DNA of 26,305 nt from a virus, in IMG/VR virus record IMGVR_UViG_3300023184_002390, positions 1 through 26,305 of that record; one strand, written 5' to 3'. The first letter of the stretch is position 1, and each line of letters starts with the position of its first letter. The translations under genes and the position numbers were made by a program. Positions 5,606 to 26,162 of this stretch are shown here, in pieces. A model generated the notes under the pieces. That model did not search any database. It was not told the origin of the DNA and was given only the letters and a program-made list of their open reading frames with translations.

Positions 5606-6994
5606 ATGACAGCACAAACATATTTGCTTACCAATACCAATGCTGTTAATAGTATATCTATACAGCGGTTTTCATTCACAGATGATTCGAATGTTCAGCA
5701 CCAAGCTGATTTATCCAATTTTAATGAATCGAGTGGTTATACAGGAAACAACACATTAAAAACAGTGGTAAAAACCTATGCCACTGGTGGATATTTAAGA
5801 AAGCACCTTACCCAAGATAGTCACAACAGGACAGTTTATTACAGCACACACACCGGCTCGGCATTAACTATAAGGAATACCGTGGGACATTTATTTGATT
5901 ATCCCAATGGAGTTCAAGCAGGATGGGTAGCCAGTGGCGGAACTGGTTACGATGGTTTAAGGGTTGTATCGGTAACTGATGACAGACATCTAGTAATGAG
6001 TGGAACGCCATCATCGACACCGATAGATGGTGACAGTATTATATTTTCTACCTCAACATATATATTAGTATTAGATGATACAACCACATTGGCCGCAAAT
6101 TGGACAATAACTGAAAATGGATATACTCCGCCTCCTAGTGGAGCACCTGCATACATTATAAGTGTAATAGATTCAACGCACATTCAAGTGAACAGACTTC
6201 CTGACACTACTCCAACCTATGGTAGTGGCAATGGTGCTTGGATATATTTCACCACTGCATCTAATTTTTTAACATTTAGTCAAACTACATCGGGATTATC
6301 AGGTGGGTGGACTGCTCAAGGAAATGGTTACAGTGGTCAAAGTGTAGTTTCAATTGTTAATGACTATACAGTTATAATGAGTGACATGCCTGATAGTGTT
6401 CCAACTTCTAGTGGGGCAATAACATTCACAGATCCTAATCCTATGCTAACCCTAGGGCCATTTGAGTCTGCGACATTCACTGTAGATTATTCAACTCCTA
6501 CACATTTACAGGGTAATAATTATCCTGCCACTGTAACAGTTTATGCCAAAGAAGGTTCGTCTAACCTTACAAGGATAGCCTACAATTTTATTAACATAAA
6601 TCAAGCAGCAACTCAAGTACCAACATACTTGGGGGGTACTAATGGCAGGTCTGGTTATACTTTCACTGTTCAAACATTTACAACTTTTGATAATACCTAT
6701 GGTGTACAAACCGTAACCGTAGTTACCAATGATCAAACAGGACAAAGTTATGCCGTAACAGGTATAGCGTCAAATCCAGATGGAGACACTTCAATATCAA
6801 TCAGTACGGCAATTAGCACTGGTAATGATCCAGCTAGTCAAGCCGCAGCCGCCGCTAGCGCCGCAGCCGCAGCCGCAGCCGCAGCCGCAGCCGCAGCCGC
6901 ACCCGCAGCATCCGCTGATGGAGTTGGTGATGGTGTAGGTGATGGTGTAGGTGACAGTACATCACCATCGGTGGGTGTAGGTGTAGGAGAATAA
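5606..6994 (+). CDS. repetitive tail-fibre-like protein with poly-Ala and GVGD tail
   Basis: This is a 462-aa beta-rich protein. Residues about 107-276 contain three imperfect repeats of one unit (for example 'GWVASGGTGYDGLRVVSVTDD...MSGTP', 'NWTITENGYTPPP...IISVIDS', 'GGWTAQGNGYSGQSVVSIVND...MSDMP'), followed by a beta-sandwich-like region up to about 385. The C-terminus is unusual: five Ala, a Ser, then 14 Ala (419-432), then P-A-A-S-A-D and GVGD repeats ending in GVGVGE. The poly-Ala is coded by a GCCGCA microsatellite. The tail may be a flexible spacer or a sheet/coil-forming tether. It begins 4 bases after the previous stop with no clear Shine-Dalgarno sequence, suggesting translational coupling. 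A virion fibre role is inferred from composition and neighbours. Confidence 0.6.
   Translation: MTAQTYLLTNTNAVNSISIQRFSFTDDSNVQHQADLSNFNESSGYTGNNTLKTVVKTYATGGYLRKHLTQDSHNRTVYYSTHTGSALTIRNTVGHLFDYPNGVQAGWVASGGTGYDGLRVVSVTDDRHLVMSGTPSSTPIDGDSIIFSTSTYILVLDDTTTLAANWTITENGYTPPPSGAPAYIISVIDSTHIQVNRLPDTTPTYGSGNGAWIYFTTASNFLTFSQTTSGLSGGWTAQGNGYSGQSVVSIVNDYTVIMSDMPDSVPTSSGAITFTDPNPMLTLGPFESATFTVDYSTPTHLQGNNYPATVTVYAKEGSSNLTRIAYNFININQAATQVPTYLGGTNGRSGYTFTVQTFTTFDNTYGVQTVTVVTNDQTGQSYAVTGIASNPDGDTSISISTAISTGNDPASQAAAAASAAAAAAAAAAAAAAPAASADGVGDGVGDGVGDSTSPSVGVGVGE
6860..6901 (+). repeat. GCCGCA microsatellite, seven perfect units
   Basis: Seven perfect tandem copies of the GC-only-but-one hexamer GCCGCA lie inside an AT-rich gene and code for Ala-Ala each time. 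Related imperfect units flank it (6842-6856, 6902-6910). Unit gain or loss would change linker length without shifting the frame. Confidence 0.9.
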
Positions 6995-6995
6995 A

Positions 6996-8441
6996 ATGGC
7001 AGATTCATTTGACGTCAATATAAACATAGGTAGTGAATTGGGATTTACCATACAAACCGGCACGAATCTACTTGCCTATACTCCACAGATTCAAACGGTA
7101 TTAAATTTAAATGGTGATAGATTTACCACTGCTAGTTTTACTCAATCTGTGGGTTCTTTAATACAAGTGACCTCATTATCAGATTTTGAATTTCCTCTAT
7201 ATACAATAAGTAATAGCCAAACAGTAACTATTTCTAACGTTGGATTATCTGCTTTAACTATCACTAATATCTTATATTCTCAAAACCCAGATGTATCTCC
7301 AGTATTTTGGATTACTCCTCCAACTATTGCAAATCCTATTATAATTGCTCCGGGAGCTAGTTCAACAATTGGTATCGCCTATGTATCATTTGCTTCTGGA
7401 GTATTTGACAACTATATTATTTTTAGATCAAATAATGCAACCGGATCGTATTATAAACTTGAAACACATCAACTAGTCGGTGTATCTACCGGATTTACAA
7501 TCAGTCCTAGTGGATTTAATACTACTACAACATTGATAAATCATGTTGATACAGTTAGTTATAATATAACTGCTATAGTCAATACAGCTCCGTATCCAGG
7601 ATATATTATTCCATTAGAGCCTTCTTTAAAGGGCAGTCGAGCATGGAGTATAATAAGAAACAGTTCTAATGTAGTTAGAGTACAGTTTGATCCTAGTGAG
7701 GTGAATAATGTTAATGGAACTTATATATCTACATTAACAGTTGTGGCGGCGGGTATTACACGTACTGTGACAAATACAGCAACTATAAACATAGACTATA
7801 CTGCTAACAAACATATAGCAGGATGGATAAGTCCTGCAAGTCATTATAATAGTATCGTGGGTATAAGTTATGATCTTGAAGACAATCAAAGAATTCTCAC
7901 TATAGGTGTAGGCATGGGCGGGGATGGAGTACCTATATACGGAGCAGGTGGTAGTAGATATGCCAATGTAGATTATCTAGGATTGGGAGCAAGTTCAGTA
8001 GTCACACCATATCCATTTTGGGCCAAAGTATATAAGATACCATTTATCGGATCCAAACAAGTATATCACAGTAATGATTATGTAGTTAAAACAACATCAA
8101 GTTTAGATTACAGTAGTTATTTTGGAGAATATCGTGCGCCCGGATCAATGTTTATTGTTGAAGATGATGGGTACGGATCTATCAAAATTGAAATAAATCA
8201 TCTAAGAGATCTCATAGGAGATGAGGATGAGATACTCAGCACTACATTAAAGAATTTAACTAGAGCATTCCATTATTATTCTAATGTGGATATACAAGGT
8301 AGATATGCTCCGTTACCTACAGAGTATATTGCTCCTAATGCATTGAATACTGCTACAACTAATTTATTCCTTGGTTTTGATTATAATACAAGAGATAAGG
8401 TAGGATCAGTTAATGCTTCAATAGTAGTTCTTCCTGTCTAA
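6996..8441 (+). CDS. virion structural protein with ASH/Hydin-like Ig domain
   Basis: This 481-aa protein follows the preceding stop by one base and has a GGAGA ribosome site. Residues about 60-165 ('FPLYTISNSQTVTISNVGLSALTITNI...PPTIANPIIIAPGASSTIGIAYVS...YIIFRSNN') match the pattern of ASH/Hydin-type Ig-like domains, with the typical 'vtisNvG...l.i...i...' start and 'PG.s..i.v.y' strand. The rest is beta-rich, and the C-terminal 180 residues are Gly/Tyr/Ser-rich ('GVGMGGDGVPIYGAGGSRYANVDYLGLGASS'). No catalytic motif is seen. Position after two fibre-like genes suggests a tail appendage. The Ig-like call is by eye and should be treated as moderate. Confidence 0.55.
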   Translation: MADSFDVNINIGSELGFTIQTGTNLLAYTPQIQTVLNLNGDRFTTASFTQSVGSLIQVTSLSDFEFPLYTISNSQTVTISNVGLSALTITNILYSQNPDVSPVFWITPPTIANPIIIAPGASSTIGIAYVSFASGVFDNYIIFRSNNATGSYYKLETHQLVGVSTGFTISPSGFNTTTTLINHVDTVSYNITAIVNTAPYPGYIIPLEPSLKGSRAWSIIRNSSNVVRVQFDPSEVNNVNGTYISTLTVVAAGITRTVTNTATINIDYTANKHIAGWISPASHYNSIVGISYDLEDNQRILTIGVGMGGDGVPIYGAGGSRYANVDYLGLGASSVVTPYPFWAKVYKIPFIGSKQVYHSNDYVVKTTSSLDYSSYFGEYRAPGSMFIVEDDGYGSIKIEINHLRDLIGDEDEILSTTLKNLTRAFHYYSNVDIQGRYAPLPTEYIAPNALNTATTNLFLGFDYNTRDKVGSVNASIVVLPV

Positions 8442-8480
8442 TTTAAAAACATCAATTATATACTAGGATAATTAGTATAT

Positions 8481-10049
8481 ATGTTAGATGTAGTTCAAAT
8501 ACCCTCAAATGAAATAGCAGCCATAGAATGGAATGGTGATCATATAGATTATGACACACAACTGCATGAATTGGGTTCTGACTATGATGAGTTCATAGTA
8601 ATAAATCCTTGGTTAGAAGATAAAAGTTTAATTCATTATATAGAATATATTCCATCAACATATAAATGTGTAATGTGGAATTACCAAGGCAATTGGGTAG
8701 CTAAATTCTTCAATAGTGATTGGACATACGACTTAGGTTATGAAGTAATTGAAATAGTCAAACCTAAGTTCATTTGGAATAAGAATCCAAATCTTGATAA
8801 ATTAATAACATTTGAAGATGATCCATTTGGAAATTTTGAGCCCGACTATTGGGATAACTCATATGAATTAGTTTGGTATTTAGATCCCAAAGTAAATCCA
8901 ACTAATAATAAAGTTTGGGCCATAAGCTGTCGTGCAATCGGCAATGAAAACATCGGTACCAAGGATATGGGATATGTAATGCCCTTGCTCAATATTGAAT
9001 ATAATAGCGATCTTCCTGACCTAGGAGTAGATATAGATCAGTGCTATCCTGCTTATTGGGAATTAGATAAGGAATGTGCTTGGGAATTGGATCCTGTACA
9101 TACTCCCAATAAGCGTATGTGGGTAATAAAATTTAGTCCTGCATATAGAAACCCATCGGGGTGGTTGTGGTATGGAACTATTTCTCCAGAATATCATGTA
9201 GTTCATAATCCCGAATTACCTAAAATGAATTATGATGTAGATTATGTTATACCATGGCATGATCTAGATTACGAGCATGTTTGGTATCTTGATGATCAAT
9301 ATACAACCTGGGTATTTAAAATATATGCTTCTAAAGATCTAGTAGGTACTAAAGAATTATATATACCCAATCCGGATGTTGTTTTTATTAGTTACAATGA
9401 ATCTAATGCGGAAGAAAATTGGCAAAGGTTATTAGAGAAAGCACCTAATGCAATGAGAGTAGATGGTGTTAAGGGTATATTTAAAGCTCACAAAGCTGCT
9501 GCCAAATTAGTTAAGACTGATATGTTCTATGTAGTAGATGGTGATGCTTATATAAAAGATAATTTTAACTTTGATTATCAACCTAGCCTGCATAATAGAG
9601 ATTGTACTCACATATGGAAAGCTAAGAATCCTATTAATGGATTAGTATATGGATATGGTGGAGTTAAATTGTTTTCAACTCAGGTAATGAGAAAAGCACG
9701 GTCTTGGAAAACATTAGATCTATCAACTACAGTAATTGATAAACTTAAACTCATAGATGTTGTTAGTAATATAACAGCATTTGATACAGATCCTAAATCA
9801 GTTTGGCGAAGTGCATTTAGAGAATGTGTAAAATTGTGTTATAATGTTTTAGTAGATTCTAATGATAAAGAAAGCCAAAAAAGATTAGACAAATGGCTAA
9901 CAGGTGGAGAGAATCATCAATATGGACAATATGCAAGAGATGCTGCTAGGTTAGCCATAGAATGGACTAATGAAAATCATAATGATCTAACTACCCTACA
10001 GTTGGTAAATGATCGCCAATGGATAGAGAACAAATTTAATAATGAGTAA
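8481..10049 (+). CDS. glycosyltransferase-like protein with N-terminal repeats
   Basis: This is a 522-aa protein. The C-terminal half (from about residue 299: 'DVVFISYNESNAEENWQRLLEKAP') has a GT-A-like nucleotide-sugar fold pattern: a first strand, a helix, 'VDGVKGIFKAHKAAAKLVKTDMFYVVDGDAYI' with a D-x-D motif at D353-G-D355, and a Trp-containing acceptor region after it. Residues about 121-297 hold three diverged copies of a Trp/Asp/Pro-rich module around the motif 'Y-x-x-x-W-x-L-D-P...W-x-I/F-K' (for example 'YELVWYLDP', 'KECAWELDP', 'YEHVWYLDD'). These may be a binding array. It starts the decoration operon and overlaps the next gene by 8 bp. Similar proteins are common in T4-like aquatic phages. 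The acceptor is unknown. Confidence 0.65.
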   Translation: MLDVVQIPSNEIAAIEWNGDHIDYDTQLHELGSDYDEFIVINPWLEDKSLIHYIEYIPSTYKCVMWNYQGNWVAKFFNSDWTYDLGYEVIEIVKPKFIWNKNPNLDKLITFEDDPFGNFEPDYWDNSYELVWYLDPKVNPTNNKVWAISCRAIGNENIGTKDMGYVMPLLNIEYNSDLPDLGVDIDQCYPAYWELDKECAWELDPVHTPNKRMWVIKFSPAYRNPSGWLWYGTISPEYHVVHNPELPKMNYDVDYVIPWHDLDYEHVWYLDDQYTTWVFKIYASKDLVGTKELYIPNPDVVFISYNESNAEENWQRLLEKAPNAMRVDGVKGIFKAHKAAAKLVKTDMFYVVDGDAYIKDNFNFDYQPSLHNRDCTHIWKAKNPINGLVYGYGGVKLFSTQVMRKARSWKTLDLSTTVIDKLKLIDVVSNITAFDTDPKSVWRSAFRECVKLCYNVLVDSNDKESQKRLDKWLTGGENHQYGQYARDAARLAIEWTNENHNDLTTLQLVNDRQWIENKFNNE

Positions 10050-11421
10050 TGAACAAAGAATAGAAGTTCTCAAAAATAAAGTAATTAAGATAAACTCAGT
10101 AAGTCCTAGCTTCTGTACAGCTAAATGGTTACAAACTACTTTATATTTGCAAAATGGATACAATCATAGTTGCCATCATCCTGGGCCACATAAAATACCT
10201 GTAGATGAAGTGTTGGCTGATCCAGCAGCATTACATAATTCAAGTTATAAAAAAGATCAACGTAAGATGATGTTAGAAGGTCAAAGGCCCAGCGAATGTG
10301 AATATTGCTGGAACATTGAAGATTTAAACAAAGACTATTTTTCTGATAGACATTACAAAACTAGTGATTACTGGGCATGGGATAGATTTGATGAAGTTGC
10401 TAGATCTAATTGGTCCGATAACATCAATCCTGCATATTTAGAAGTAAGTTTCTCTAATGCTTGCAATCTTAAATGTGCATATTGTAGTCCAGAGATTAGT
10501 TCTAAATGGTTAGAAGAGATTGAACGCTATGGTCCGTATCCTAGTGGGTTAGGCGACTTAACTTGGTTAAAAGATACTGGCAGATATCCTTACAAAGCAA
10601 GAGAAGTAAATCCATATGTTGATGCATTTTGGAGTTGGTTCCCCGATATATATAAAGACTTAAAAGTGTTTCGTGTAACTGGCGGTGAGCCTTTAATGAG
10701 TAAAGACCTATGGAAATTATTAGATTGGATTATAGAAAATCCCAATGATCAATTAGAGTTAGCTATTAACAGCAACATGTGTAATGATAAAATATTAATT
10801 AATAAGTTTATTGAGAAACTTAATTTAGTTCAAAGTAAAGTTAGACGTCTTATTGTTTTTACCAGTATTGAAAGTATAGAACAACAAGCGGAATATGCTA
10901 GATTTGGAATGAATTATAAACAATGGTTACGCAATGTAAATTTGTTATTAGAAAATACACAGGTTGAATTGGGTATAATGACCACTATGAATATATTAAG
11001 TGTAAATCATACTACTGATCTAATAGATTTAGTAATGAACTTACGTGCTACATTTAATAAATCAAATGACGACACTAGGATACATTTAAGTTTTAATATT
11101 CTTCGTTGGCCTCCTATATTAGATATTAGATTGTTGCCCAATGATTATAAACAACAACTTGCCAAAGACATTTTAGCTAAAGGTAATTGGTGGACTAAGT
11201 TTGAAAATGGAACTACATTTTCTAAACTATATTTAGAAGAACTAGATCAGTTAAAACGTTTCTGTGATTATATGAACAGTGATATAGATGAAGTAGAATG
11301 TAATACGCATCGAAAGAATTTTATTGATTTTGTAAATGAATATGATAAAAGAAAAGGAACAGATTTTTTAAAAACATTCCCCCATTTAGAATCTATATAT
11401 TATGATTGGAATAACTTGTGA
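10042..11421 (+). CDS. radical SAM enzyme 1, SPASM/twitch-like cysteines N-terminal
   Basis: This 459-aa protein has the radical SAM core signature C141-x3-C145-x2-C148 ('NACNLKCAYCS') and 'VTGGEPLM' for SAM binding. Ahead of it, residues 24-90 carry C25, C44, C86 and C89 in the arrangement 'FCTAKW...SCHH...LEGQRPSECEYCW', which is the SPASM/twitch auxiliary-cluster pattern normally found after the core. Here it comes first. Such enzymes usually alter peptide side chains or similar substrates using 5'-deoxyadenosyl radicals, and need [4Fe-4S] clusters. It overlaps the preceding gene by 8 bp and the next by 4 bp. It is the closest paralogue of the following gene. The substrate is unknown. Confidence 0.85.
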   Translation: MSNEQRIEVLKNKVIKINSVSPSFCTAKWLQTTLYLQNGYNHSCHHPGPHKIPVDEVLADPAALHNSSYKKDQRKMMLEGQRPSECEYCWNIEDLNKDYFSDRHYKTSDYWAWDRFDEVARSNWSDNINPAYLEVSFSNACNLKCAYCSPEISSKWLEEIERYGPYPSGLGDLTWLKDTGRYPYKAREVNPYVDAFWSWFPDIYKDLKVFRVTGGEPLMSKDLWKLLDWIIENPNDQLELAINSNMCNDKILINKFIEKLNLVQSKVRRLIVFTSIESIEQQAEYARFGMNYKQWLRNVNLLLENTQVELGIMTTMNILSVNHTTDLIDLVMNLRATFNKSNDDTRIHLSFNILRWPPILDIRLLPNDYKQQLAKDILAKGNWWTKFENGTTFSKLYLEELDQLKRFCDYMNSDIDEVECNTHRKNFIDFVNEYDKRKGTDFLKTFPHLESIYYDWNNL

Positions 11422-12998
11422 AAAAAACAGACGAAACATATGTAGAATATAGGAATAGAGCAATTGATTCTATTAGTCCTAGTTTCTGCGGAGCAAAATG
11501 GTATAATGCAACAGTTTGGTTAGGCAGTGGAAGTACAGCAAGTTGTCACCATCCGCCTGCACATAAGATACCGTTAGAAGAATTAGCCCGTAGTCCAAAA
11601 GCCCTACACAATACTGAATATAAAAAGTTAGTAAGAGAGCAAATGCTTAGAGGCGAACAACCAGAAGAGTGTGACTACTGCTGGAAAATTGAAGGATTAA
11701 GCAAAGACACAATTAGTGATCGTGTTTATAAGAGTATAATTTATTCTGATCAAGATCTAATAGATGCAAAAACTGTATTTGGCAGTAAGATTGATGTAGA
11801 TTTAAAAACATTAGAGATAGCATTTGATGCTAACTGTAATTTTGCCTGTAGTTATTGTAATCCTAGTTTCAGTACAACATGGATGGCAGATGTTAAGACT
11901 AATGGGCCTTATCAAAATCTAGTAAGCGACGGCGCCGGAGCATTTCAACAAGACGGAACATGGGCACAACCTTACGGTATTAAAAACAAAGACAATCCAT
12001 ACGTAGCAGCATTTTGGAAATGGTGGGAAGGTGACCTACAACATAGTTTAAAAGAGTTGCGGGTCACTGGTGGTGAAGCAACCATGAGTCAAGACTTTTG
12101 GAAACTAATGGATTGGTGGGAACAGCATCCTGAATGTAAAGTTGCGTTAGCCGTTAATAGTAATCTAGGAGCAACACCTAAATTAATTAAAAGGTTGTGC
12201 AATGCAACACATAGTTTCAAGAGCTTTGATCTTTACACCAGTAATGAAAGTTATGGAACTCATGCAGAATACATTAGAGACGGACTCAATTGGGAAACTT
12301 GGATATCTAATTTACGTATGATGATTGAACAAGGCAATTGTCGTGCAACACATATGATGATGACTATTAATAGTTTGTCGTTATTCAGCATTACTGAGTT
12401 TATGGATGAAATGTTAAAGTTACGTAAAGAATTTGGACGCAGACATTGTACAATGAGTTTTAATATATTGCGTTTCCCTAGCTTCATGAGTCCATTAACA
12501 TTACCACAACCTATTAGGAATCAGATAGCAGACAAACTTGAAACTTGGATTACTACCAAATGGGAAGAGCAAGGCAACTCAGACGGACAAGGTACAGGCC
12601 TAATACATCAAATGGAATATGATAGCATCAAACGTATGCTACCTTATCTACGTGAGTTAGATGTTGGACATAATCAAACAAGTAGTTTAGAAACTAGAGA
12701 GCGTGACTTCAAAAGTTTCTTTATGCAGTATGATCAACGTAGAGGTAAAGATTTTAAAACAACATTTCCTGAACTATCAGAATGGTATGATTCTATCCCA
12801 GTTACTGACCTAACTCCCTTAACTGAATTCATAGATGGAGATAGTACTAAAGGATGGGGACACGCCGATAGATTAGTTGAGAAAGCCAATAAGGAAGGTT
12901 GGATATTGAAACCAACTGGAGAAAATCCAGGAAGTCAAACATATAAACAACCTGCCGTAGGTGCTCCTATTAGATTTTACAAAAAGAAAAATGTCTAA
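11418..12998 (+). CDS. radical SAM enzyme 2, SPASM/twitch-like cysteines N-terminal
   Basis: This 526-aa protein starts with GTG (GTGA overlap with the previous stop). The core cysteines are C140-x3-C144-x2-C147 ('NCNFACSYCN') with 'VTGGEATM'. The N-terminal auxiliary cysteines are C24, C43, C85 and C88 ('FCGAKW...SCHHP...LRGEQPEECDYCWK'). It shares the residue order of enzyme 1 throughout (for example 'SPSFC.AKW', 'CHHP..HKIP', 'ALHN..YKK'), so the two arose by duplication. A C-terminal extension of about 70 residues past the shared region ends in a Lys-rich tail. Radical chemistry on a protein or glycan is expected. The ATG of the third enzyme lies within its last codons. Confidence 0.85.
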   Translation: MKKTDETYVEYRNRAIDSISPSFCGAKWYNATVWLGSGSTASCHHPPAHKIPLEELARSPKALHNTEYKKLVREQMLRGEQPEECDYCWKIEGLSKDTISDRVYKSIIYSDQDLIDAKTVFGSKIDVDLKTLEIAFDANCNFACSYCNPSFSTTWMADVKTNGPYQNLVSDGAGAFQQDGTWAQPYGIKNKDNPYVAAFWKWWEGDLQHSLKELRVTGGEATMSQDFWKLMDWWEQHPECKVALAVNSNLGATPKLIKRLCNATHSFKSFDLYTSNESYGTHAEYIRDGLNWETWISNLRMMIEQGNCRATHMMMTINSLSLFSITEFMDEMLKLRKEFGRRHCTMSFNILRFPSFMSPLTLPQPIRNQIADKLETWITTKWEEQGNSDGQGTGLIHQMEYDSIKRMLPYLRELDVGHNQTSSLETRERDFKSFFMQYDQRRGKDFKTTFPELSEWYDSIPVTDLTPLTEFIDGDSTKGWGHADRLVEKANKEGWILKPTGENPGSQTYKQPAVGAPIRFYKKKNV

Positions 12999-14310
12999 TC
13001 CATATTTTTGTACAGCACCATGGACACACACTTATCTCAGTCCGCAAACTGAGCGTAGGATATGTTGTGCCAGTAGAGAGCAAGCTACTTGGCAAAGACA
13101 ATATATTGATCAAAATAGTGATGCTATTAATAAAGAATATAAACCTGTTACATTGGAAGAACATTGGAACAGCGAACATATGATGAGTGTTCGTAAAAGA
13201 ATACTTGCAGGAGAAGCAATTCCAGAATGTCAAGTATGTAATGACAACCTATTAAATTTATATACCTATAGAGATTATTTCACTAAAACATTGTTTCCAC
13301 ATAAGGTTAATGACATATTGTCTAATACAGATGAGCATGGATTTACTACATTAAAGCCAGTAAGTTTTGATTATAGAATATACAATCTATGTAATTTCAA
13401 ATGTCGTATGTGTGGAGAACAATTAAGTAGTGCATGGGAAACTGAAAAACGCACAATGGGCATGTGGAATCCTAAACGCGACTTCTGGATGGTTGATGAA
13501 GCCAAAGCAAAGATAGAAGAATTCCAAAGTTCTGTATGCGAAGAAGAATTATGGGAATCAGTTAAAAACAATACCATTGAAGAAATATACTGGGTAGGTG
13601 GAGAACCACTCATGTATCAAATACATTGGGATGTTATGCAGTATCTAGTCAAATCAGGACATAGTAAAAATGTCACAGTTAGATACAATACTAATCTAAG
13701 TAGAACAAAGTATAAAGGTATTAACCTTTATGATCTATTGCCTCATTTTAAAAATGTTAATATGTGCTGTAGTCAAGATGCTACAGGAAAAGTTGCAGAA
13801 TGGATAAGAACGGGACTCAAATGGGACGAATGGCTTGAAAATTTTAAAGCAGGTATATTTCTAAACGAGATGTTTAATATCAATGGAATGGTAATTGATG
13901 TTACATTAACATTACCGGGTATGTTGGATATGAAACGACTCATCGATCTAGCATTAGAATTAGGTGTTGCAAGTTATGTAAAAATATCATTTGATTTTGA
14001 TCCTAGTGCTATCATGAGTCCAATGTGTTTGCCTAGAGATATACTTAATGAGATATGCGATGATTTAATAGAATACGAATCTCGTGTAGGTAATCAATTG
14101 ACAAAAATATACAGTGAAACTTTTAAAGATATGAAGACTCGCCCTACATTTGAAGACAAATATGGTAATGAATTCAAACAGGGATTACTTAACGGTAAAC
14201 GTCGATATGATAGAATTGCAGAGTTTAGGAAAGATAAAGATAATATCACAATTGAGCAAATATTTGCAAGAAATTCTAAAGTATTAGAGTGGTGGGATAA
14301 TATAAAATGA
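12991..14310 (+). CDS. radical SAM enzyme 3, SPASM/twitch-like cysteines N-terminal
   Basis: I start at the ATG at 12991 (MSNPYFCTAPW), giving 439 aa; an upstream GTG at 12961 would add ten residues read from the previous gene and looks spurious. The N-terminal segment is a textbook SPASM-like string: 'FCTAPW' (C7), 'RICCAS' (C25, C26), 'LEEHWNSEHMMSVRKRILAGEAIPECQVCN' (C80, C83). The core is C134-x3-C138-x2-C141 ('LCNFKCRMCG') with 'VGGEPLM'. It is more distant from enzymes 1 and 2 than they are from each other. It is translationally coupled to both neighbours (8-bp and 4-bp overlaps). Confidence 0.85.
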   Translation: MSNPYFCTAPWTHTYLSPQTERRICCASREQATWQRQYIDQNSDAINKEYKPVTLEEHWNSEHMMSVRKRILAGEAIPECQVCNDNLLNLYTYRDYFTKTLFPHKVNDILSNTDEHGFTTLKPVSFDYRIYNLCNFKCRMCGEQLSSAWETEKRTMGMWNPKRDFWMVDEAKAKIEEFQSSVCEEELWESVKNNTIEEIYWVGGEPLMYQIHWDVMQYLVKSGHSKNVTVRYNTNLSRTKYKGINLYDLLPHFKNVNMCCSQDATGKVAEWIRTGLKWDEWLENFKAGIFLNEMFNINGMVIDVTLTLPGMLDMKRLIDLALELGVASYVKISFDFDPSAIMSPMCLPRDILNEICDDLIEYESRVGNQLTKIYSETFKDMKTRPTFEDKYGNEFKQGLLNGKRRYDRIAEFRKDKDNITIEQIFARNSKVLEWWDNIK

Positions 14311-15467
14311 ACGATATATTATGCTCATTGCCCTGGATGCATCTTGCCACACATCCAGAAGGTAAATCTACCCTTTGTTGTATCAGTGATCATACTAATA
14401 ATATAAGTGCAGCAAGATCTAACGGTCAAGTTTTGAATTTAAATAAACATTCTGTAATAGAAATTGTTAATAGCGATTACTTTAAAAAAACAAGATTGGA
14501 GATGCTACAAGGTATTAAGCCCAACGCATGTTTAAGATGTTATCAAGAAGAAGATGCATCCGGTACTAGCAAACGGTTGTTAGAAAATAGTAGATTTACA
14601 GTTGAAGGTATTACAAACGAAGACGGTTCTATTATACCAAATTTAAAATTTATAGAACTTAGATTAGGCAACTTATGCAATGTTCGATGTAGAACATGTA
14701 ATCCGTATTCAAGCACTCAGTGGATACAAGAATACAAAAAATTAGAGCACGAGCTAAATTTTGTTACAAAATATAATCAACCATTAAACACTAGTTGGAC
14801 ACAAGATGATAACTTTTGGAACGATTTATTGAGTCACAGTAAGAATTTAGAACTTATATACATTAATGGGGGAGAACCTACATTAGTTGAAAAACATTGG
14901 AATTATTTAGAACGTCTAATTGATGCCGGATTGAACAGCAAGATTACGCTATGGTATAACATAAACATGACAAACTTACCCGATAAGTTAATCAACATAT
15001 GGAAACAATTTAAAAAAGTCGTTGTTCATGCTTCTATTGATGATATCGGCGAACGTAACACATATCTTAGAAAAGGTACAAAGTGGAGTGATGTAGAACA
15101 TAACCTATTAAAATTAAAGTCATTAACATGGATTGACACTCATATAACACAAACAGTTAGTTGGATGAATATATATTATGTAGATGAATTTAAAAAATAC
15201 TTCGACCACATGCAAATAAATACCCATATAAATTTAGTTTATGATCCAATATTTTTAAGTCCAAAAATTCTTTCTAACTCTATCAAGATTAAATTGTTTG
15301 AAAAACTGCAAAACTTTGATTGGTTACATCAATTAATCAAAGATGGTGAAGATATAGATAAATTTCAACAAGGGATTAGATATAATAATTGGTTAGATGA
15401 ATCAAGAAATGAAAATTTTGCTGATCATTTTAGTGAATGGCAAAAGATATTAAAAATATATTCGTAA
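14307..15467 (+). CDS. radical SAM enzyme 4, SPASM/twitch-like cysteines N-terminal
   Basis: This 386-aa protein is the shortest of the four. N-terminal cysteines are C6 ('LCSLPW'), C24 and C25 ('TLCCIS'), and C75 and C78 ('QGIKPNACLRCYQEED'). The core is C124-x3-C128-x2-C131 ('LCNVRCRTCN') with 'INGGEPTL'. All four proteins thus keep both cluster sites, so all should be active. It starts with an ATGA overlap and is followed after one base by a glycosyltransferase. This switch from radical chemistry to group transfer within one operon argues that both act on one product. Confidence 0.85.
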   Translation: MNDILCSLPWMHLATHPEGKSTLCCISDHTNNISAARSNGQVLNLNKHSVIEIVNSDYFKKTRLEMLQGIKPNACLRCYQEEDASGTSKRLLENSRFTVEGITNEDGSIIPNLKFIELRLGNLCNVRCRTCNPYSSTQWIQEYKKLEHELNFVTKYNQPLNTSWTQDDNFWNDLLSHSKNLELIYINGGEPTLVEKHWNYLERLIDAGLNSKITLWYNINMTNLPDKLINIWKQFKKVVVHASIDDIGERNTYLRKGTKWSDVEHNLLKLKSLTWIDTHITQTVSWMNIYYVDEFKKYFDHMQINTHINLVYDPIFLSPKILSNSIKIKLFEKLQNFDWLHQLIKDGEDIDKFQQGIRYNNWLDESRNENFADHFSEWQKILKIYS

Positions 15468-15468
15468 A

Positions 15469-16278
15469 ATGTTGAAGCCTAAAAAAATAACAATAGCCAT
15501 CATAACCTTTCATAGAGATTTTGGGTTATTATCAAATTTATTGCAATCGATTTATAAAAACTGGAATTCTAATGAAATAGATTCTATTAAAGTTGTGTTA
15601 AATGATAGTTCTATGTATTATGAAAAATTTAACGAAATAATAAAAAACAATACTAATCCTTTATTTCAAATAGACAAAGTATTTCATTACGAATTAGAAC
15701 CCCGATTACATACTTTAGATTGGTTTAGCCAACAAATGTTTAAATGTTTGGTATCAGATCTAATCGACACTGATTGGTTTTTAATACATGACTGTAAAGA
15801 TATCTATATAGATAAAGTTTCAATTAATGATTGTTTTGATGATCAGGGAAGAGCATTTATGCGTATTGATCATACTAGATTAACAAATAGTGGAGAAAAT
15901 AAAACGCATTGGGGCTTTGGACCATTTGCGTTTGCTCATTTAAATTCTTGCAATATTTTTGGTATTGATCCAAGTGATTATAATAACACGCATTTACCAC
16001 ATATCACTCCATTTTTTGTTAAAACATCTATGATGAAAAGCATGGTAGATGAACTGAAACAAAGTACATCTAGTTTAGGATCTAATTTTTTTCCGTTTTT
16101 ATTTTCCTTACAATTAAATGGACAAACGTTTGTTACTGAATTTTTATTATACAACGCATATTGTAGTTCTCAAAATAATTTAGCAGATTATATTGATTGG
16201 GAATATAATGATCGAAAATTTTTTAATAAAGTTGTTCATAATTTTGACGGAAGAAATTCAGATGGATCTAGAATATAA
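15469..16278 (+). CDS. DUF6492-like glycosyltransferase
   Basis: This is a 269-aa protein. 'KKITIAIITFHRDFGLLSNLLQSIYKNW' (4-32) is the first strand, loop and helix of a GT-A fold. 'DTDWFLIHDCKDIYI' stands where GT-A enzymes keep their metal-binding D-x-D; here the Asp pattern is 'HDCKD', as in the DUF6492 group of putative transferases. Later 'HLPHITPFFVKTSMM' would be the acceptor-side loop. It is expected to transfer a sugar from a nucleotide donor. It follows the radical SAM block by one base and overlaps the next gene by one base. Base composition here is strongly AT-rich, more so than the virion genes. Confidence 0.55.
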   Translation: MLKPKKITIAIITFHRDFGLLSNLLQSIYKNWNSNEIDSIKVVLNDSSMYYEKFNEIIKNNTNPLFQIDKVFHYELEPRLHTLDWFSQQMFKCLVSDLIDTDWFLIHDCKDIYIDKVSINDCFDDQGRAFMRIDHTRLTNSGENKTHWGFGPFAFAHLNSCNIFGIDPSDYNNTHLPHITPFFVKTSMMKSMVDELKQSTSSLGSNFFPFLFSLQLNGQTFVTEFLLYNAYCSSQNNLADYIDWEYNDRKFFNKVVHNFDGRNSDGSRI

Positions 16279-17732
16279 TGAAAAATAAAATAATACTAGC
16301 ATATGAAAAATATGATCCAATAACTGGATCTGGATGGAACCTTAATGGTAGAATAACTCCTAATACAACTACACAAATTATTGGACCTTCTTCAGCGTTC
16401 TATGATCACCTATATAAATTATTAATAGATTCTCAAAATAATTTAGGTATGCGTGATGATTCTAGAATTTTTGCTTATAGTGATAAGGTAACCTCAATTG
16501 TAATGCAGATGCAACTATCTGATATCACGGATCAAACTTATTTTTATCCTGTAGAAATTCGTTCAATTGATTTTTATCTTGATAACACAAGTCATATAGC
16601 AATTACTCCTAGAGTATTAGATGATATACGAAATGGTCAAGCATACTTATTAATTGTATATGATAATGAAGGTAATTTAGCATTTAGAAAAAATCAGTTA
16701 GATTTATTAATAAAACCATTAGAATTACCAAAGAACAGAGTTTATGTTATACATGGAGATTATGAATGCAATAATTTCAAAGATCAATTGTATTATTCTT
16801 ATAAGCCAGTGAATGGATATCCATGGTGGCTTGAATCTTTTAAGAACAATAACAATTATCTAACACCAATCACATATGTTCCTAACAAATTGTATATTAC
16901 ATATAATAGACGACCGAGAACACATCGCCTCTATTTAATTTCAATGTTAAAAGACAATAAGTTGTTAGAAGATGGTTTTGTGAGTTTTGGTAAAGTAGAT
17001 TTAACAGGTTTATATTTTAACGATATAAGTCAGGAAAACATAGAATTTTTAACAGCATTTGGTGGGAGAAGTATTGACAATATAGATTTAGATATTGAAG
17101 TTCCTGCTATACACATTGATTGGTTATCACATGCTAAATCTTTTTTGTCTTTAGTTTCTGAAACTTTAGTTTCTGATGAAACCAATTGTATATATTTCAG
17201 TGAGAAAATATATAAACCAATTGTAATAGGTCATCCTTTTTTATTGCTAGGCGGACATAAACAGTTAGCAAAACTTAGAGAATTTGGATTTAAAACATTT
17301 AACCAATGGTGGGATGAAGACTACGACAATATACACAATGTATTAGAAAGAATTAAATGCATAATTAACATATTAGTTGATCTAAAATCTAAACCAATAG
17401 AAGAATTAATTTTAATAAGAAAACAAATGCTGCCTACATTAGAGCACAACCAACAGGTTTATAGAGAATTAGTAGCAAACAATCCAGACAAACATAGTCG
17501 TCCTATCAGAGAAGTATTGGAATCGATATTAATACAAGACGGTAACTTATCCATAAGTAACAAAGTACAGGAAATTTATAATATGGAAATTAATACAAAC
17601 ACTAATAGTGCGTCTAAATTGACGTTGGAAGAACTTCTAGAAAGAGAAGAACAAAAAATGAACGAACAAAAAAACGACATGCAAAAACGCTTAGAAGAAC
17701 TAAGAAAACGTGATCCGTTTATATACAAATGA
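16278..17732 (+). CDS. GT-B glycosyltransferase-like (fucosyltransferase-type C-half)
   Basis: This is a 484-aa protein. The first 200 residues are unfamiliar. 'YNRRPRTHRLYLISMLKD' (209-226) and then 'SLVSETL...IYFSEKIYKPIVIGHPFLLLGGHKQLAKLREFGFKTF' (291-341) match the GDP-sugar binding half of alpha-1,3-fucosyltransferase-like (GT10-type) proteins, where 'E-K-x-x-x-x-x-x-G-x-P' contacts the donor. The last 40 residues ('LTLEELLEREEQKMNEQKNDMQKRLEELRKRD') form a highly charged coiled-coil helix that may bind a partner. It overlaps the DUF6492-like gene by 1 bp and the carbamoyltransferase gene by 4 bp. The donor could be a GDP- or other nucleotide sugar. Confidence 0.55.
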   Translation: MKNKIILAYEKYDPITGSGWNLNGRITPNTTTQIIGPSSAFYDHLYKLLIDSQNNLGMRDDSRIFAYSDKVTSIVMQMQLSDITDQTYFYPVEIRSIDFYLDNTSHIAITPRVLDDIRNGQAYLLIVYDNEGNLAFRKNQLDLLIKPLELPKNRVYVIHGDYECNNFKDQLYYSYKPVNGYPWWLESFKNNNNYLTPITYVPNKLYITYNRRPRTHRLYLISMLKDNKLLEDGFVSFGKVDLTGLYFNDISQENIEFLTAFGGRSIDNIDLDIEVPAIHIDWLSHAKSFLSLVSETLVSDETNCIYFSEKIYKPIVIGHPFLLLGGHKQLAKLREFGFKTFNQWWDEDYDNIHNVLERIKCIINILVDLKSKPIEELILIRKQMLPTLEHNQQVYRELVANNPDKHSRPIREVLESILIQDGNLSISNKVQEIYNMEINTNTNSASKLTLEELLEREEQKMNEQKNDMQKRLEELRKRDPFIYK

Positions 17733-18673
17733 TACGTTGGGGAATTAATGCTCTTAATCACGGTAGCAGTGTAGCCGTGTTTAACGATGATAATCTTAAC
17801 TTGTTTGAATTTGCCAAACAAGATACCCTGCCACAAGAATTGTTAGGAAAAGCATTAGACATGGGATGGCCTGATCATATCTTTTGGTACGAACGTCCTT
17901 GGGTTAAAAAAGCAAGGCAATTATATGCAGGACAATATTCACTGGCAATGGATTTAGATGAATTGCCAAGTCGGTATCTTAACAAATACTCATTGGGAGA
18001 TGTTCCAATAACATATACTCCCCATCACGGAAGTCATGCAGCCGCTGGATACTATTCAAGTCCATTTAATCACTGTGCTATTGTAGTACTCGATGCAATC
18101 GGCGAGTTTGAATGTGCCACTATATGGGAAGGCAAACACGGTAAGATGCGTAAGGTATGGAGTCGTAGTTATCCTAACAGTTTAGGATTGTTTTATAGCG
18201 CCTTTACTAAATTAATAGGATTAGAACCAATAAAGGAAGAATATTTACTTCAACAGATGTCAATACAAGGCGACCCTAAACGATATTATCACGATGTTAA
18301 ACGTTATGTTAATTTTATTGTTAGACTCACTAGTAATTTACACAAAGGAGTAACAGATTGGCCTTATACAATTGATACTCAACAAGATAAGAATGATATT
18401 GCTGCGGCAGTACAATTAGTATTTGAGAATCAAGTGTCGGCTGTTATGCTTAAAGCTAGACAATTAATTGATACTGATTGTTTGGTGTATATGGGAGGTT
18501 GTGCCATGAATAGCAAATCAAATGAGTATGAAGTAAAGGCATGGAAACATGTTTGGAGTTTGCCTAATCCTGGAGATCCAAGCAGTGCTATTGGTGCAGT
18601 ATTATATCACACAAAAAATCGTAATTGGAATTATAATTTAGGTACCGTTAAACATATTACAATTAATGTATGA
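17729..18673 (+). CDS. carbamoyltransferase, NodU/CmcH N-terminal domain only
   Basis: This 314-aa protein matches the N-terminal (ASKHA, Kae1-like) domain of NodU/CmcH carbamoyltransferases: 'GINALNHGSSVAVF' (5-18), 'YTPHHGSHAAAGYYSSPF' (96-113) with the paired metal-binding His residues, 'VLDAIGEFECATIW', 'SLGLFYSAFTKLIGL' and 'YMGGCAMNSKSN' for the nucleotide site, then 'PNPGDPSSAIGAVLYH'. Full enzymes are about 550-600 aa with a C-terminal domain that makes carbamoyl-adenylate from carbamoyl phosphate; this one ends after the first domain. It may use a host domain in trans or a different chemistry, or only bind. Sugar O-carbamoylation is the likely reaction by family. It has ATGA overlaps on both sides. 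Confidence 0.8.
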   Translation: MIRWGINALNHGSSVAVFNDDNLNLFEFAKQDTLPQELLGKALDMGWPDHIFWYERPWVKKARQLYAGQYSLAMDLDELPSRYLNKYSLGDVPITYTPHHGSHAAAGYYSSPFNHCAIVVLDAIGEFECATIWEGKHGKMRKVWSRSYPNSLGLFYSAFTKLIGLEPIKEEYLLQQMSIQGDPKRYYHDVKRYVNFIVRLTSNLHKGVTDWPYTIDTQQDKNDIAAAVQLVFENQVSAVMLKARQLIDTDCLVYMGGCAMNSKSNEYEVKAWKHVWSLPNPGDPSSAIGAVLYHTKNRNWNYNLGTVKHITINV

Positions 18674-19218
18674 TAAACAAGGATGCTTTCAGTAGCGGGC
18701 AAGTTGGTAGCAAAATTTGGCTCTGCGAACAATTGGAACTATTATTTGATAATATAGATACTATATGGATATATGGCGGTTGGTATGGAATTACATCATT
18801 CTTGTTAAAGTCTAGAAATAATATAAACATATCAACTATAAGAAGTTATGATATGGATCCTAGTTGTGAAGCAATAGCTGATATGATCAATGAAAATTGG
18901 GTGTATAATGATTGGCAATTTAAAGCGCATACTGCTGATTGTTCTACACTAATACCTACTGTGGGTAATCCTGATCTAATAATCAATACCAGCACTGAAC
19001 ATTTTGATACAATGGATTGGTGGGATAATATTCCCAAAGGCTCCTATGTTGCATTGCAAGGTAACAATATGCCACATGATGATCATGTTATACATTCAAG
19101 GTCGCTATCTGAGTTCTGTGAATCATATCCCTTAGACAATATTTTATACAAGGGCAAATTGGATTTTAATTATCCAACCTGGAATTTTACTAGATTTATG
19201 CAAATTGGTACAAAGTAA
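18670..19218 (+). CDS. class I SAM-dependent methyltransferase-like
   Basis: This is a 182-aa protein. 'DTIWIYGGWYGITSFLL' (30-46) is motif I of a Rossmann methyltransferase with Gly-Gly-x-x-Gly in place of the common GxGxG. 'IRSYDMDPSCEAIA' (57-70) gives the acidic residues (D61, D63) that bind the SAM ribose. 'PDLIINTSTEHF' (101-112) is the motif IV region. It is short, with no separate substrate domain. Phage cassettes of this type often O-methylate a sugar. Methylation, carbamoylation and sulfation genes lie next to each other, which strengthens a glycan-tailoring reading. It is coupled to its neighbours by 4-bp and 1-bp overlaps. Confidence 0.65.
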   Translation: MINKDAFSSGQVGSKIWLCEQLELLFDNIDTIWIYGGWYGITSFLLKSRNNINISTIRSYDMDPSCEAIADMINENWVYNDWQFKAHTADCSTLIPTVGNPDLIINTSTEHFDTMDWWDNIPKGSYVALQGNNMPHDDHVIHSRSLSEFCESYPLDNILYKGKLDFNYPTWNFTRFMQIGTK

Positions 19219-19844
19219 TGATCATATCAGATAATGATAAATGGCTAGTATTAAGTGCAACACGAACAGGTAGCACACTTATAGTAGATTTTATAAGAAG
19301 TGTATATGAGTGCAATTTAAAAACCATACACTTCATACCTCATGGCATGCATGATCGTGACGAGTATTTTGTAAAACATTCACATGATTTAAAAGATTAT
19401 TTTCTTTTTAAAGACGATCCTTTAATTAAAATTGTAATCAGTACAAGAGACATAATTGAAAGCAGTTTGAGTTGGTGCATAGCCAAAAGACATAAAATTT
19501 TTTATCATTATGATAAAAGTCATAAACCAACTATGGAACCATTTGTATTAGATCCTAATGAACTTTTATATACTTATTCTAAATTAAAAGAATTCTACAT
19601 TGGGATAACAGATATTGATAATCATTTTATTATTGACTATGACAACTTTAGAGATGATCCTAAAAATTTGTTTAGATTATTAGATTTAGAAAAATACGCT
19701 AACTCAACGCAATTAAAATTACCCATAAAAAATGACCCATATCACATTTTTATAAAAAACTGGAACGAGATAGATAAATTATCAAATACATTAAAAAACA
19801 ACAAACCATTTTTGGTTAAAGACAGATTGACAACATTATATTAA
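19218..19844 (+). CDS. sulfotransferase-like protein
   Basis: This is a 208-aa protein. 'WLVLSATRTGSTLI' (9-22) is the P-loop-like 5'-phosphosulfate-binding loop of PAPS-dependent sulfotransferases. 'KIVISTRDIIESSLSW' (71-86) is the 3'-phosphate-binding segment with R77 and S83. The C-terminal third has 'HFIIDYDNFRDDPKNLFRLLDL', a typical family end. The donor is expected to be host-made PAPS. It is the last gene of the operon, and the promoter of the lysis genes begins inside its final codons. Sulfated groups would add negative charge to a glycan or protein surface. A related P-loop enzyme without sulfotransferase activity is less likely. Confidence 0.65.
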   Translation: MIISDNDKWLVLSATRTGSTLIVDFIRSVYECNLKTIHFIPHGMHDRDEYFVKHSHDLKDYFLFKDDPLIKIVISTRDIIESSLSWCIAKRHKIFYHYDKSHKPTMEPFVLDPNELLYTYSKLKEFYIGITDIDNHFIIDYDNFRDDPKNLFRLLDLEKYANSTQLKLPIKNDPYHIFIKNWNEIDKLSNTLKNNKPFLVKDRLTTLY

Positions 19845-19855
19845 TAGTTTATAAT
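19827..19855 (+). promoter_or_regulatory. consensus sigma70 promoter for the lysis genes (P7)
   Basis: TTGACA (19827-19832), 17 nt and TATAAT (19850-19855). The -35 lies within the end of the sulfotransferase gene. Confidence 0.75.
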
Positions 19856-21063: not shown

Positions 21064-21450
21064 ATGAGTTATTCTAACACTGTACTTGATCATTATGAAA
21101 ATCCTAGAAATGTAGGATCGTTTGGTAAAGATGAGGATAATATAGGAACAGGTATGGTTGGTGCCCCTGCGTGTGGGGATGTAATGAAACTTCAAATTAA
21201 AGTAAATAATTGTGGAGTTATCGAAGATGCAAGATTTAAAACGTATGGTTGCGGAAGCGCGATTGCTTCGAGTTCGCTTGTTACTGAATGGATCAAAGGA
21301 CGGACACTTGAGCAAGCGGAGCAGATTAAAAATAGCGAAATTGCTAATGAACTTGCCCTCCCCCCAGTTAAAATTCATTGTTCAATACTTGCGGAAGACG
21401 CAATCAAAGCGGCAGTAAAAGATTACAGAGAACATTATGGATCAAATTGA
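21064..21450 (+). CDS. iscU: IscU Fe-S cluster scaffold protein
   Basis: The 128-aa protein is the same length as bacterial IscU and nearly collinear with the Escherichia coli protein as I remember it: '[12 protein letters not shown]', '[19 protein letters not shown]' (C37, D39), '[21 protein letters not shown]' (C63) and '[19 protein letters not shown]' (H105, C106). The three cluster cysteines and the LPPVK site for HscA are all present, so it should be functional and use host IscS/HscA. It is not the shorter SufU or the NifU form. It lies 2 bases after the previous gene, and erpA overlaps it by 14 bp. In a phage its likely job is to help assemble clusters for the four radical SAM proteins (inference). 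Confidence 0.95.
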
Positions 21451-21766
21451 AATCACTAATTCTGCAATACTTAAAATTGCAGACATACTTGCTGAAGAAA
21501 ATAATCCACAAGTAATGCTAAGAACATTTGTACAAGGTGGAGGATGTAGTGGATTTAACTATGGTTTCACTCTTGACGAAGAACAAAATGAAGATGACTT
21601 TGTAATTAAGAAACCTGGAATGACAGTGGTAATAGATGCTATGAGTATGCAATACCTACAAGGTGCTACAATAGATTACAAAGAAGAACTTATGGGATCA
21701 AATTTTGTAATTAAAAATCCTAATGCTCAAAGCACTTGCGGATGTGGATCTAGTTTTTCTGTTTAA
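21437..21766 (+). CDS. erpA: ErpA-type A-type Fe-S carrier protein
   Basis: This 109-aa protein belongs to the HesB/IscA/ErpA family. '[17 protein letters not shown]' carries the first cluster cysteine, and '[14 protein letters not shown]' the C-G-C pair at the end, so all three ligands are kept. '[15 protein letters not shown]' is closer to ErpA than to IscA. It passes [2Fe-2S]/[4Fe-4S] clusters to target enzymes. It overlaps iscU by 14 bp in another frame, so the two are coupled and made together. Its 3' end overlaps a convergent gene by 4 bp. Confidence 0.9.
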
Positions 21767-22154: not shown

Positions 22155-22994
22155 ATGCATAAAGATCACGTACAAGAATATCTTCTTAAAGTTACAAAAC
22201 ATTTGTTTGGGCCTATTAATCCAGAGTATAACCCTAGTACAGATATTATCCCGCAACCTATATATCGTAGGCATGAGATTCCTATTGCTGATTACTTAAT
22301 GAGTTTTAAAGAAGCATTAACTGAAGAATTTTTAAGAGGTTATTCTAATTTAGAAGAAGCTATCAATGCTCAAGGTCATCCTGTATTGCAAAAAAGAGAA
22401 GATAGAAAACAATATTTTGACAAAGTTGAATTTGATGAGCAACTAACAAGATTTCCAGATGCAGCAACACAATTTATCAGAACATTACACGGTGATGAGT
22501 CTATAGTTAATCCACACGCATGGAAAAATGTAGAACTCAAATATCATTGTCCTTTTGAAAATATACACTGGGATATTGATCCAGAGTATGCTCAAAAAAG
22601 ATATCCAGTTGCTTATAAGTTAATACAAGAATTTGGCGACGATTGTCCTATCTCTAGTTTTTCTTATATCGGGCCCATGAGTACATTGCATAGACATACT
22701 GGTCCTGAAAATAGATTAGGAGAGTTTATAAGAATACATATTCCTTTAATAATTCCACCTGGCGATATATTTTTTGAAGTTCATGGTGAAGAAATCGATT
22801 GGAGTGATATATTTGCTTTTGATAATCAACTAGCACATAGCGCCCATAATTTAAGTAATGATCATAGGCTTATATTCCTAATTGATATACGTAGAAGTAG
22901 AATAGGAATGCCACCTGGTCAAACTTATAATCGTGATAGACAACTACATTCAGTAGCAACGTCTTTTGTGAGGAAACCTAAAAATGAAAGATGA
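22155..22994 (+). CDS. Asp/Asn beta-hydroxylase-like protein, copy 1
   Basis: This is a 279-aa protein. The C-terminal half has the Asp/Asn beta-hydroxylase (PF05118) pattern: 'STLHRHTGPENRLGEFIRIHIPLIIPPGD' with H179/H181, then 'WSDIFAFDNQLAHSAHNLSNDHRLIFLIDIRR' with H228/H231 and R238. These are the His iron ligands and the Arg that binds 2-oxoglutarate; like AspH it shows no clear acidic third ligand. The first 110 residues are helical and not familiar. Next to it lies a paralogue. It probably hydroxylates an Asp or Asn side chain in a protein, or acts on a small molecule. It is behind a late box, so it may modify a virion protein. Confidence 0.75.
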   Translation: MHKDHVQEYLLKVTKHLFGPINPEYNPSTDIIPQPIYRRHEIPIADYLMSFKEALTEEFLRGYSNLEEAINAQGHPVLQKREDRKQYFDKVEFDEQLTRFPDAATQFIRTLHGDESIVNPHAWKNVELKYHCPFENIHWDIDPEYAQKRYPVAYKLIQEFGDDCPISSFSYIGPMSTLHRHTGPENRLGEFIRIHIPLIIPPGDIFFEVHGEEIDWSDIFAFDNQLAHSAHNLSNDHRLIFLIDIRRSRIGMPPGQTYNRDRQLHSVATSFVRKPKNER

Positions 22995-25943: not shown

Positions 25944-26162
25944 GTGGCTAAAGAAGATTTAATCACTTCGGATGGAGTGGTAGAGGAAGTGTTACCCAAC
26001 GCAATGTTCAGGATAAAAATAGCACAAGGTGCAACTATACTTGGACACATCTCGGGCAAGATGCGTCAAAATAAAATTCAAATTCTAGCAGGAGATCGTG
26101 TTAGAGTAGAACTTTCACCGTATGATCTGAGTAAATGTAGAATCACTTATCGTGAGAGATAA
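25944..26162 (+). CDS. infA: translation initiation factor IF-1
   Basis: The 72-aa protein has exactly the length of bacterial IF-1 and follows it from end to end: '[26 protein letters not shown]', '[39 protein letters not shown]'. It is a single OB-fold (S1 type) that binds the 30S A site and helps place the initiator tRNA. The start is GTG; AAAGGAG lies rather far upstream (about 13 nt). It follows the small phage gene after two bases and is closed by a strong terminator. The Gly normally in 'DLSKGRI' is a Cys here. Phage-coded IF-1 is rare; it could change initiation preferences in the infected cell. Identification is firm, role is inferred. Confidence 0.95.

Follow-up and report, generated by a model that had tools for sequence, protein, structure and literature searches.

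A candidate glycan-building gene module with four radical SAM enzymes beside the fibre-type genes of an uncultivated phage fragment

We analysed the whole of IMG/VR virus record IMGVR_UViG_3300023184_002390, an uncultivated virus record of 26,305 bases that is called the window here; since it is a linear fragment, statements of absence hold for what the window contains. Ten tightly packed open reading frames (ORFs), g1 to g10, are located at 8481-19844, downstream of three fibre-type genes, and are predicted to encode glycosyltransferases (GTs), four radical S-adenosylmethionine (SAM) enzymes and a set of putative capping enzymes. The fibre-type genes, the ten cassette genes and the site that follows them are listed below by position in the window, with relatives given as numbered loci (L) and protein families as numbered clusters (c).

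4816-5601, plus strand: TA, virion/fibre-type protein; in other phages the homologous TA follows a fibre-type c83 gene or the tail tube
5606-6994, plus strand: tailB, probable fibre protein with a low-complexity C-terminus; L047 and L201 have homologues in the same place
6996-8441, plus strand: tailC, immunoglobulin (Ig)-like probable fibre protein; HYDIN/CFA65 Ig-like domain at E 9e-5, below cut-off
8481-10049, plus strand: g1, GT-A core (residues 293-522) behind an N-terminal repeat region, from an AlphaFold2 (AF2) model and its VIA match
10042-11421, plus strand: g2, N-twitch radical SAM enzyme; NF033640 at 333 bits; 7 cluster cysteines intact
11418-12998, plus strand: g3, N-twitch radical SAM enzyme; NF033640 at 311 bits; own clade, support 1.0
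12991-14310, plus strand: g4, N-twitch radical SAM enzyme; NF033640 at 297 bits; alternative start GTG 12961
14307-15467, plus strand: g5, N-twitch radical SAM enzyme; NF033640 at 340 bits
15469-16278, plus strand: g6, DUF6492 protein, probable GT; PF20102 at E 9e-10, passing cut-off
16278-17732, plus strand: g7, GT-B-fold probable GT, from an AF2 model
17729-18673, plus strand: g8, stand-alone Kae1-like carbamoyltransferase domain; PF02543 at E 4e-24
18670-19218, plus strand: g9, probable methyltransferase (c89 family, common to L086, L183 and a 'putative methyltransferase' of phage Mosig)
19218-19844, plus strand: g10, possible sulfotransferase; 3'-phosphoadenosine-5'-phosphosulfate (PAPS)-type motifs read by eye only
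19827-19855, plus strand: sigma-70 consensus promoter-like site; 12/12 match, 17-nt spacer

Recomputing the junctions confirmed the position of the ten ORFs and the report of a first-pass annotation that they meet in overlaps of 1-8 bp or a 1-bp gap: with ATG 12991 taken as the g4 start, the nine junctions measure -8, -4, -8, -4, +1, -1, -4, -4 and -1 bp. Equal tightness is found at 45% of the 2361 co-directional junctions in related viral loci, and at least nine such junctions in a row occur in 2 of 1823 runs; the run is unusual, though not unique. The three fibre-type genes upstream are nearly as tight (gaps of 4 and 1 bp), and the single separator between them and the cassette is a 39-bp gap at 8441-8481. 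At the other end, the sigma-70-like site overlaps the end of g10, marks the 3' boundary of the cassette and lies directly before a cell wall hydrolase gene. A T4-type late promoter, TATAAATA, was sought before the fibre genes and the cassette and rejected, the lone copy being on the minus strand at 24308, below chance expectation. Rfam and tRNA searches gave no matches. As for the gene order proposed earlier (GT, four radical SAM enzymes, two GTs, carbamoyltransferase, methyltransferase, sulfotransferase), it holds for the radical SAM enzymes, for the carbamoyltransferase domain and for the GT folds of g1 and g7, and more loosely for the methyl- and sulfotransferase, where the evidence is weaker.

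The earlier view of the ten genes as one cassette did not survive comparison with relatives, between which g6 to g10 are swapped. Compared with the nearest relative, L047, DNA identity rises from 55-63% over the fibre genes and 72-73% over g1 to 88% in g2 and 91% in g3, then drops to 82% in g4 and 68% in g5; no alignment is possible for most of g6 or for a large part of g7. Identity thus peaks over g2-g4, with g6, much of g7, g9 and g10 replaced or moved, a pattern that argues for a core of g1 plus the radical SAM run, to which exchangeable capping genes are added. This core recurs in a module of constant order: c83 - TA - c51 - GT - GT - c84 - g1 family - radical SAM genes, in which c83 is fibre-type and matches tail-fibre and virion PHROGs. 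All 44 viral loci with c51-GT-GT (34-36 distinct ones after clustering at 80-95%) run on into the g1 family, and in 34 of the 44 a radical SAM gene follows within at most seven same-strand genes; 40 of the loci have a gene upstream of c51-GT-GT, and in 39 of these a TA or c83 fibre-type gene is present there. Because the queries used to collect the loci were radical SAM, carbamoyltransferase or g1 sequences, the tallies for g1 and radical SAM are inflated; TA, c83, c51 and c39 were never used as queries, and the TA, c83, c51 and GT counts are unbiased. Relatives add genes for a UDP-glucose dehydrogenase, a dTDP-4-dehydrorhamnose epimerase and a cytidylyltransferase.

The tie is to fibre genes rather than to the tail at large. 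In genomes of 424, 238 and 219 kb it is c83/TA that the module adjoins, the sheath gene being 57-110 kb off, for which reason we rejected a cassette fixed to the tail backbone: in these jumbo phages the sheath is distant, with TA/c83 still adjacent. In marine T4-like contigs the g2-g3 pair stands between a tail fibre gene (S74-type C-terminus) and the sheath gene, with GTs fused to lectin-like domains, and a recognised structural gene is present in 30 of 40 fetched loci bearing g2/g3-type genes. The previously proposed link to structural genes is in this way narrowed: the g1/radical SAM module keeps fibre-type genes as neighbours much more regularly than it does other tail genes. Homologues of tailC are found in L047, L181, L185 and L201. 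The tailB terminus (6840-6990, plus strand) consists of poly-Ala and GVGD repeats.

All four radical SAM proteins pass the curated cut-off of NF033640 (297-340 bits, cut-off 170 bits). The four twitch cysteines, the CX3CX2C motif and GGE are intact in g2-g5, and both CX3CX2C and the twitch cysteines are invariant across 15 aligned sequences, all four window genes included, which argues that each enzyme probably binds two [4Fe-4S] clusters. In a tree of 445 sequences the four occupy separate clades, with support of 1.0 for g3, 0.94 for g4 and only 0.66 for g2 and g5, and the order g2-g3-g4-g5 is found again in several marine T4-like contigs. In cultured phages no close homologue of the g3 type was found at E 1e-5, and the g4 and g5 types match Vibrio phages at only 22-25%. 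Among PDB profile matches of g2-g5 are SkfB, MoaA, BtrN and viperin, and the N-terminal segment aligns with the twitch of BtrN.

The GT assignments come from predicted structures, as neither g1 nor g7 matched a family in the libraries searched and a PDB sequence search with g1, g7, g9 and g10 gave nothing meaningful. The C-terminal 230 residues of g1 are modelled with a pLDDT of 87.4, and the model aligns with B4GALNT1 (9h6k) over 140 residues at VIA Z 11.5 and a root-mean-square deviation of 3.2, with WrtF, ThuS and others close behind and the peptide GTs SunS and GalNAc-T also among the matches. The g7 model is of low confidence (pLDDT 66.5), and its GT-B matches are numerous and level with one another at VIA Z 9.7-10.7. 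On the models, g1 would have a GT-A and g7 a GT-B fold; fold by itself shows no function. No close homologue of the g1 family was found in cultured phages at E 1e-5. The N-terminal region of g1 (8481-9356, plus strand) holds about three 65-residue repeats of YExVWYLDP type, and some homologues are longer (L085, 900 residues); in L195 (4949-7867) about six degenerate repeats precede one intact GT core.

Gene fusions back the first-pass suggestion that the GT and radical SAM genes act together. In L181 a single protein of 981 residues combines the g1 GT with a twitch radical SAM domain, and in a bacterium (L145) the g1 GT is fused to another radical SAM enzyme; L069 joins the g1 GT to the g9 methyltransferase family and L192 an NAD sugar epimerase to the g7 family. 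Shared synteny and fusions support the view that the genes make up a glycan pathway linked to the adhesion block of the phage. The sequence itself shows which enzyme families are present, that their metal sites are intact, that synteny is shared and fusions occur, and that a membrane component is missing. We consider it very probable that the module is a glycan pathway.

In a different use of the same enzymes, a protein or peptide would be the direct substrate of the radical SAM run, matured by side-chain cross-links or epimerisation on a fibre protein or on a product resembling ribosomally synthesised and post-translationally modified peptides, and the GTs would glycosylate it afterwards. The PDB twitch/SPASM relatives do include the peptide enzymes SkfB and YydG, the g1 model matches peptide GTs as noted above, and one bacterial locus, L103, has four radical SAM genes and no GT. 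Yet the gapless cassette leaves no room inside it for a short precursor ORF (distant precursors are possible), the twitch segment matches BtrN, a sugar-type enzyme, too, and relatives carry sugar-nucleotide genes. On balance we regard direct peptide maturation as improbable.

Among the capping genes, g8 matches NovN, GdmN and TobZ in their N-domains only. Residues H99, H103, D122 and D283 are invariant in 16 sequences, with the metal-site spacing HX3H-X18-D plus a distal Asp, and, following TobZ, we take them to be the metal ligands. The YrdC-like C-domain, which makes carbamoyl-adenylate, is absent, as g8 stops at 314 residues; for want of it we class g8 as a Kae1-like domain homologue and not as a full NodU/TobZ O-carbamoyltransferase. 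Full-length carbamoyltransferases are present elsewhere in 15 of 27 related records. In many other phages a close homologue of g8 (57-72%, similar length) is flanked by a primase-like and a helicase-like gene, so that g8 is separable from the cassette. This strongly conserved stand-alone Kae1-like domain between primase-like and helicase-like genes can be seen at L003 (10001-10945) and about 40 further loci. For g9 there was no Pfam match. In g10 the motifs read by eye are ATRTGST near the N-terminus and VISTRD, and the protein matches nothing in Pfam, PHROGs, NCBIfam or PDB sequences.

The setting of these g8 homologues bears on a further alternative, in which the cassette hypermodifies phage DNA with glycosylated or carbamoylated bases. 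Phage carbamoyltransferases can act on 5-hydroxymethylcytosine (PMC8670742), the short carbamoyltransferase sits between primase-like and helicase-like genes in many relatives, and g7 aligns with T4 BGT and AGT, with other GT-B proteins scoring equally well. In PMC8670742, DNA modification is marked by a partner enzyme, a thymidylate-synthase-type (deoxycytidine monophosphate) hydroxymethylase; none was seen in the 26-kb fragment, and GT-flanked carbamoyltransferases occur in unmodified contigs according to the same paper. As the module is moreover located in the fibre block, DNA hypermodification appears to us highly improbable.

Further genes of the window flank the fibre genes and the cassette.

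3221-3979, minus strand: GT9-like gene b, heptosyltransferase-like by eye; divergent, upstream; no Pfam match
3979-4743, minus strand: GT9-like gene a; no Pfam match; 57% identical to its L047 homologue
21064-21766, plus strand: IscU and A-type iron-sulphur (Fe-S) carrier genes, side by side; PF01592 at E 2.6e-51 and PF01521 at E 6e-20

The GT9-like pair is kept in L047 and L187 and probably in L183. It is possible that the Fe-S carriers support the radical SAM enzymes; as an obligate partner they were rejected, IscU being found in 5 of 19 records with radical SAM genes versus 0 of 8 without, numbers that are too small. Elsewhere in the window are two tandem, duplication-like Asp/Asn beta-hydroxylase genes (22155-23763, plus strand), an ORF resembling translation initiation factor IF-1 by eye (25944-26162, plus strand), unusual for a phage, and a GIY-YIG endonuclease-like ORF by eye (819-1190, minus strand), after which some 880 bp show no clear gene.

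The first-pass annotation named two targets, most simply the structural proteins encoded upstream, or else the host surface. If the host envelope is the target, the module would alter lipopolysaccharide core or capsule glycans during infection, blocking superinfection or hiding the receptor, and the fibre neighbourhood would reflect the same receptor. The GT9-like pair upstream fits such a role, the family being known mainly from lipopolysaccharide core synthesis. The same enzymes are present on bacterial chromosomes without virion genes, and modification of the host is the published reading for the GTs of the pelagimyophage host recognition cluster (PMC7029224). Against it, no membrane segment was found in any of the ten cassette proteins (hydropathy maximum 1.23), and the cassette codes for neither a flippase nor a polymerase, a bactoprenol GT or any other membrane protein; Gtr-type serotype conversion, with its membrane flippase and bactoprenol glucosyltransferase, finds no counterpart among these ten proteins without a hydrophobic segment. 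The module also tracks fibre genes and not any envelope gene. We treat the host envelope as a close rival that is, taken by itself, rather unlikely, and virion-fibre decoration as the leading reading, held tentatively.

Fibre decoration itself is confronted with several observations that weigh against it. The first-pass annotation had named relatives carrying the cassette apart from the structural genes as evidence that would count against its view, and this was found in part: at five well-flanked viral loci a GT accompanies radical SAM genes with no structural gene recognised, and some Bdellovibrionota chromosomes, on long contigs, carry the g1-family GT, the g9-family methyltransferase and radical SAM genes with no fibre genes. 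The bacterial relatives of the twitch radical SAM enzymes come mainly from Bdellovibrionota genomes. L183, which apparently shares the flanking genes of the window, is without TA, tailB and tailC at that site. In L103 (6609-12022), a bacterial metagenome-assembled genome, the four twitch radical SAM genes (two of g3 type, one g4, one g5) adjoin an integrase gene. No fusion of these enzymes with any fibre gene was found, and radical SAM substrates cannot be read from sequence, the twitch/SPASM relatives modifying peptides too. The occurrence of the enzymes without fibre genes argues that the pathway is portable and not tied to the virion in every setting.

With these points counted, our preferred account, to which we give a little less than an even chance, is a mobile glycan-building module in the tail-fibre (adhesion) block of a large, probably contractile-tailed phage, with the fibre proteins as the likeliest acceptor; that a fibre is the acceptor we consider about evenly balanced. 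In the scheme that follows, the sugar acted on, the sequence of reactions, the fibre acceptor and the role of the glycan are inferred. A single substrate would be shared by the g1 GT and the four radical SAM enzymes, with the GT placing a sugar on it. The radical enzymes, drawing on the phage-coded Fe-S carriers, may then rearrange, epimerise, dehydrogenate or cross-link the sugar or glycosylated residue handled by g1; g6 and g7 could lengthen the glycan, with g8 to g10 probably adding carbamoyl, methyl and sulfo groups as caps. TA, tailB and tailC are the likeliest acceptors and would be modified in the cytoplasm ahead of tail assembly, the cytoplasmic site being suggested by the lack of membrane segments in the cassette proteins. 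Such a glycan might serve to tune receptor binding or to shield the fibre. In its full form the scheme would have large phages carry on their own fibres a glycan whose carbon skeleton four radical SAM enzymes rewrite and which afterwards receives carbamoyl, methyl and sulfo groups, a class of virion modification not known from cultured phages and partly shared with predatory bacteria; we consider it unlikely as it stands.

With its order constant across dozens of phages, from the fibre gene through the GTs and the g1 GT to the radical SAM genes, and with the fusions added, the module leads to a concrete claim, namely that the radical SAM enzymes and GTs act on one adhesion-tied glycan. Cultured phages with comparable clusters (Mosig, CP220 and 332-Vera) make the claim testable by mass spectrometry; if fibres are so decorated, this would bear on phage host recognition and add radical chemistry to phage protein modification. 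The earlier statement that the combination was undescribed can no longer be upheld. Radical SAM islands in phage structural regions are published (PMC2853527, PMC7029224, PMC12390700) and have been called 'highly unusual' since 2010 and left without a function, and Mosig has radical SAM, carbamoyltransferase and methyltransferase genes by its tail fibres. We found no publication that joins phage, radical SAM, carbamoyltransferase, glycosyltransferase and sulfotransferase.

The cultured Pelagibacter phage Mosig EXVC030M (MT647606; L263, 12527-22842) has a tightly packed run beside its tail fibres and VrlC that resembles the cassette in its radical SAM, carbamoyltransferase and c89-family methyltransferase genes, and also holds SGNH-like and sugar aminotransferase genes. 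It differs in having c46/MoaA-type radical SAM enzymes instead of the twitch quartet, a full-length carbamoyltransferase, no g1-family match and no recognised sulfotransferase-like gene. The pelagimyophage host recognition cluster, too, is an island of varying content among structural genes, in which tail fibres accompany many GTs and radical SAM cassettes; its authors prefer modification of the host O-chain (PMC7029224). The window has the tail fibres together with GTs and radical SAM cassettes by which such a cluster is recognised, but the cluster is defined between VrlC and gp14 and this 26-kb fragment contains neither. In the Campylobacter phages the islands comprise 11-12 genes (PMC2853527); CP220 and CPt10 share with the window clustered radical SAM genes, nucleotide-sugar transferase-fold genes near a baseplate lysozyme gene and an interchangeable block, and differ in their radical SAM families, in the presence of an amidinotransferase and in having no carbamoyltransferase in the stretch examined (PMC2853527). 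Aeromonas phage vB_AerVM_332-Vera, compared with the window by its published description, carries eight radical SAM genes within a structural cluster with five tail fibre genes, but is a Chimallin-type jumbo phage (PMC12390700). The T4-like environmental genome TARA_ERS488813_N000010 and its relatives combine an Fe-S carrier with as many as 12 radical SAM genes, and some of the relatives encode IscU. The part of PMC5332604 dealing with them reads this set as Fe-S metabolism and draws no link to fibre genes there. Mycobacteriophage GTs glycosylate capsid and tail tube proteins, in a system that, as described where PMC12619734 cites it, includes no radical SAM or capping enzymes. Set beside all of these, the present locus and its relatives add the twitch quartet, a fibre-GT-radical SAM order that is conserved, and the fusions.

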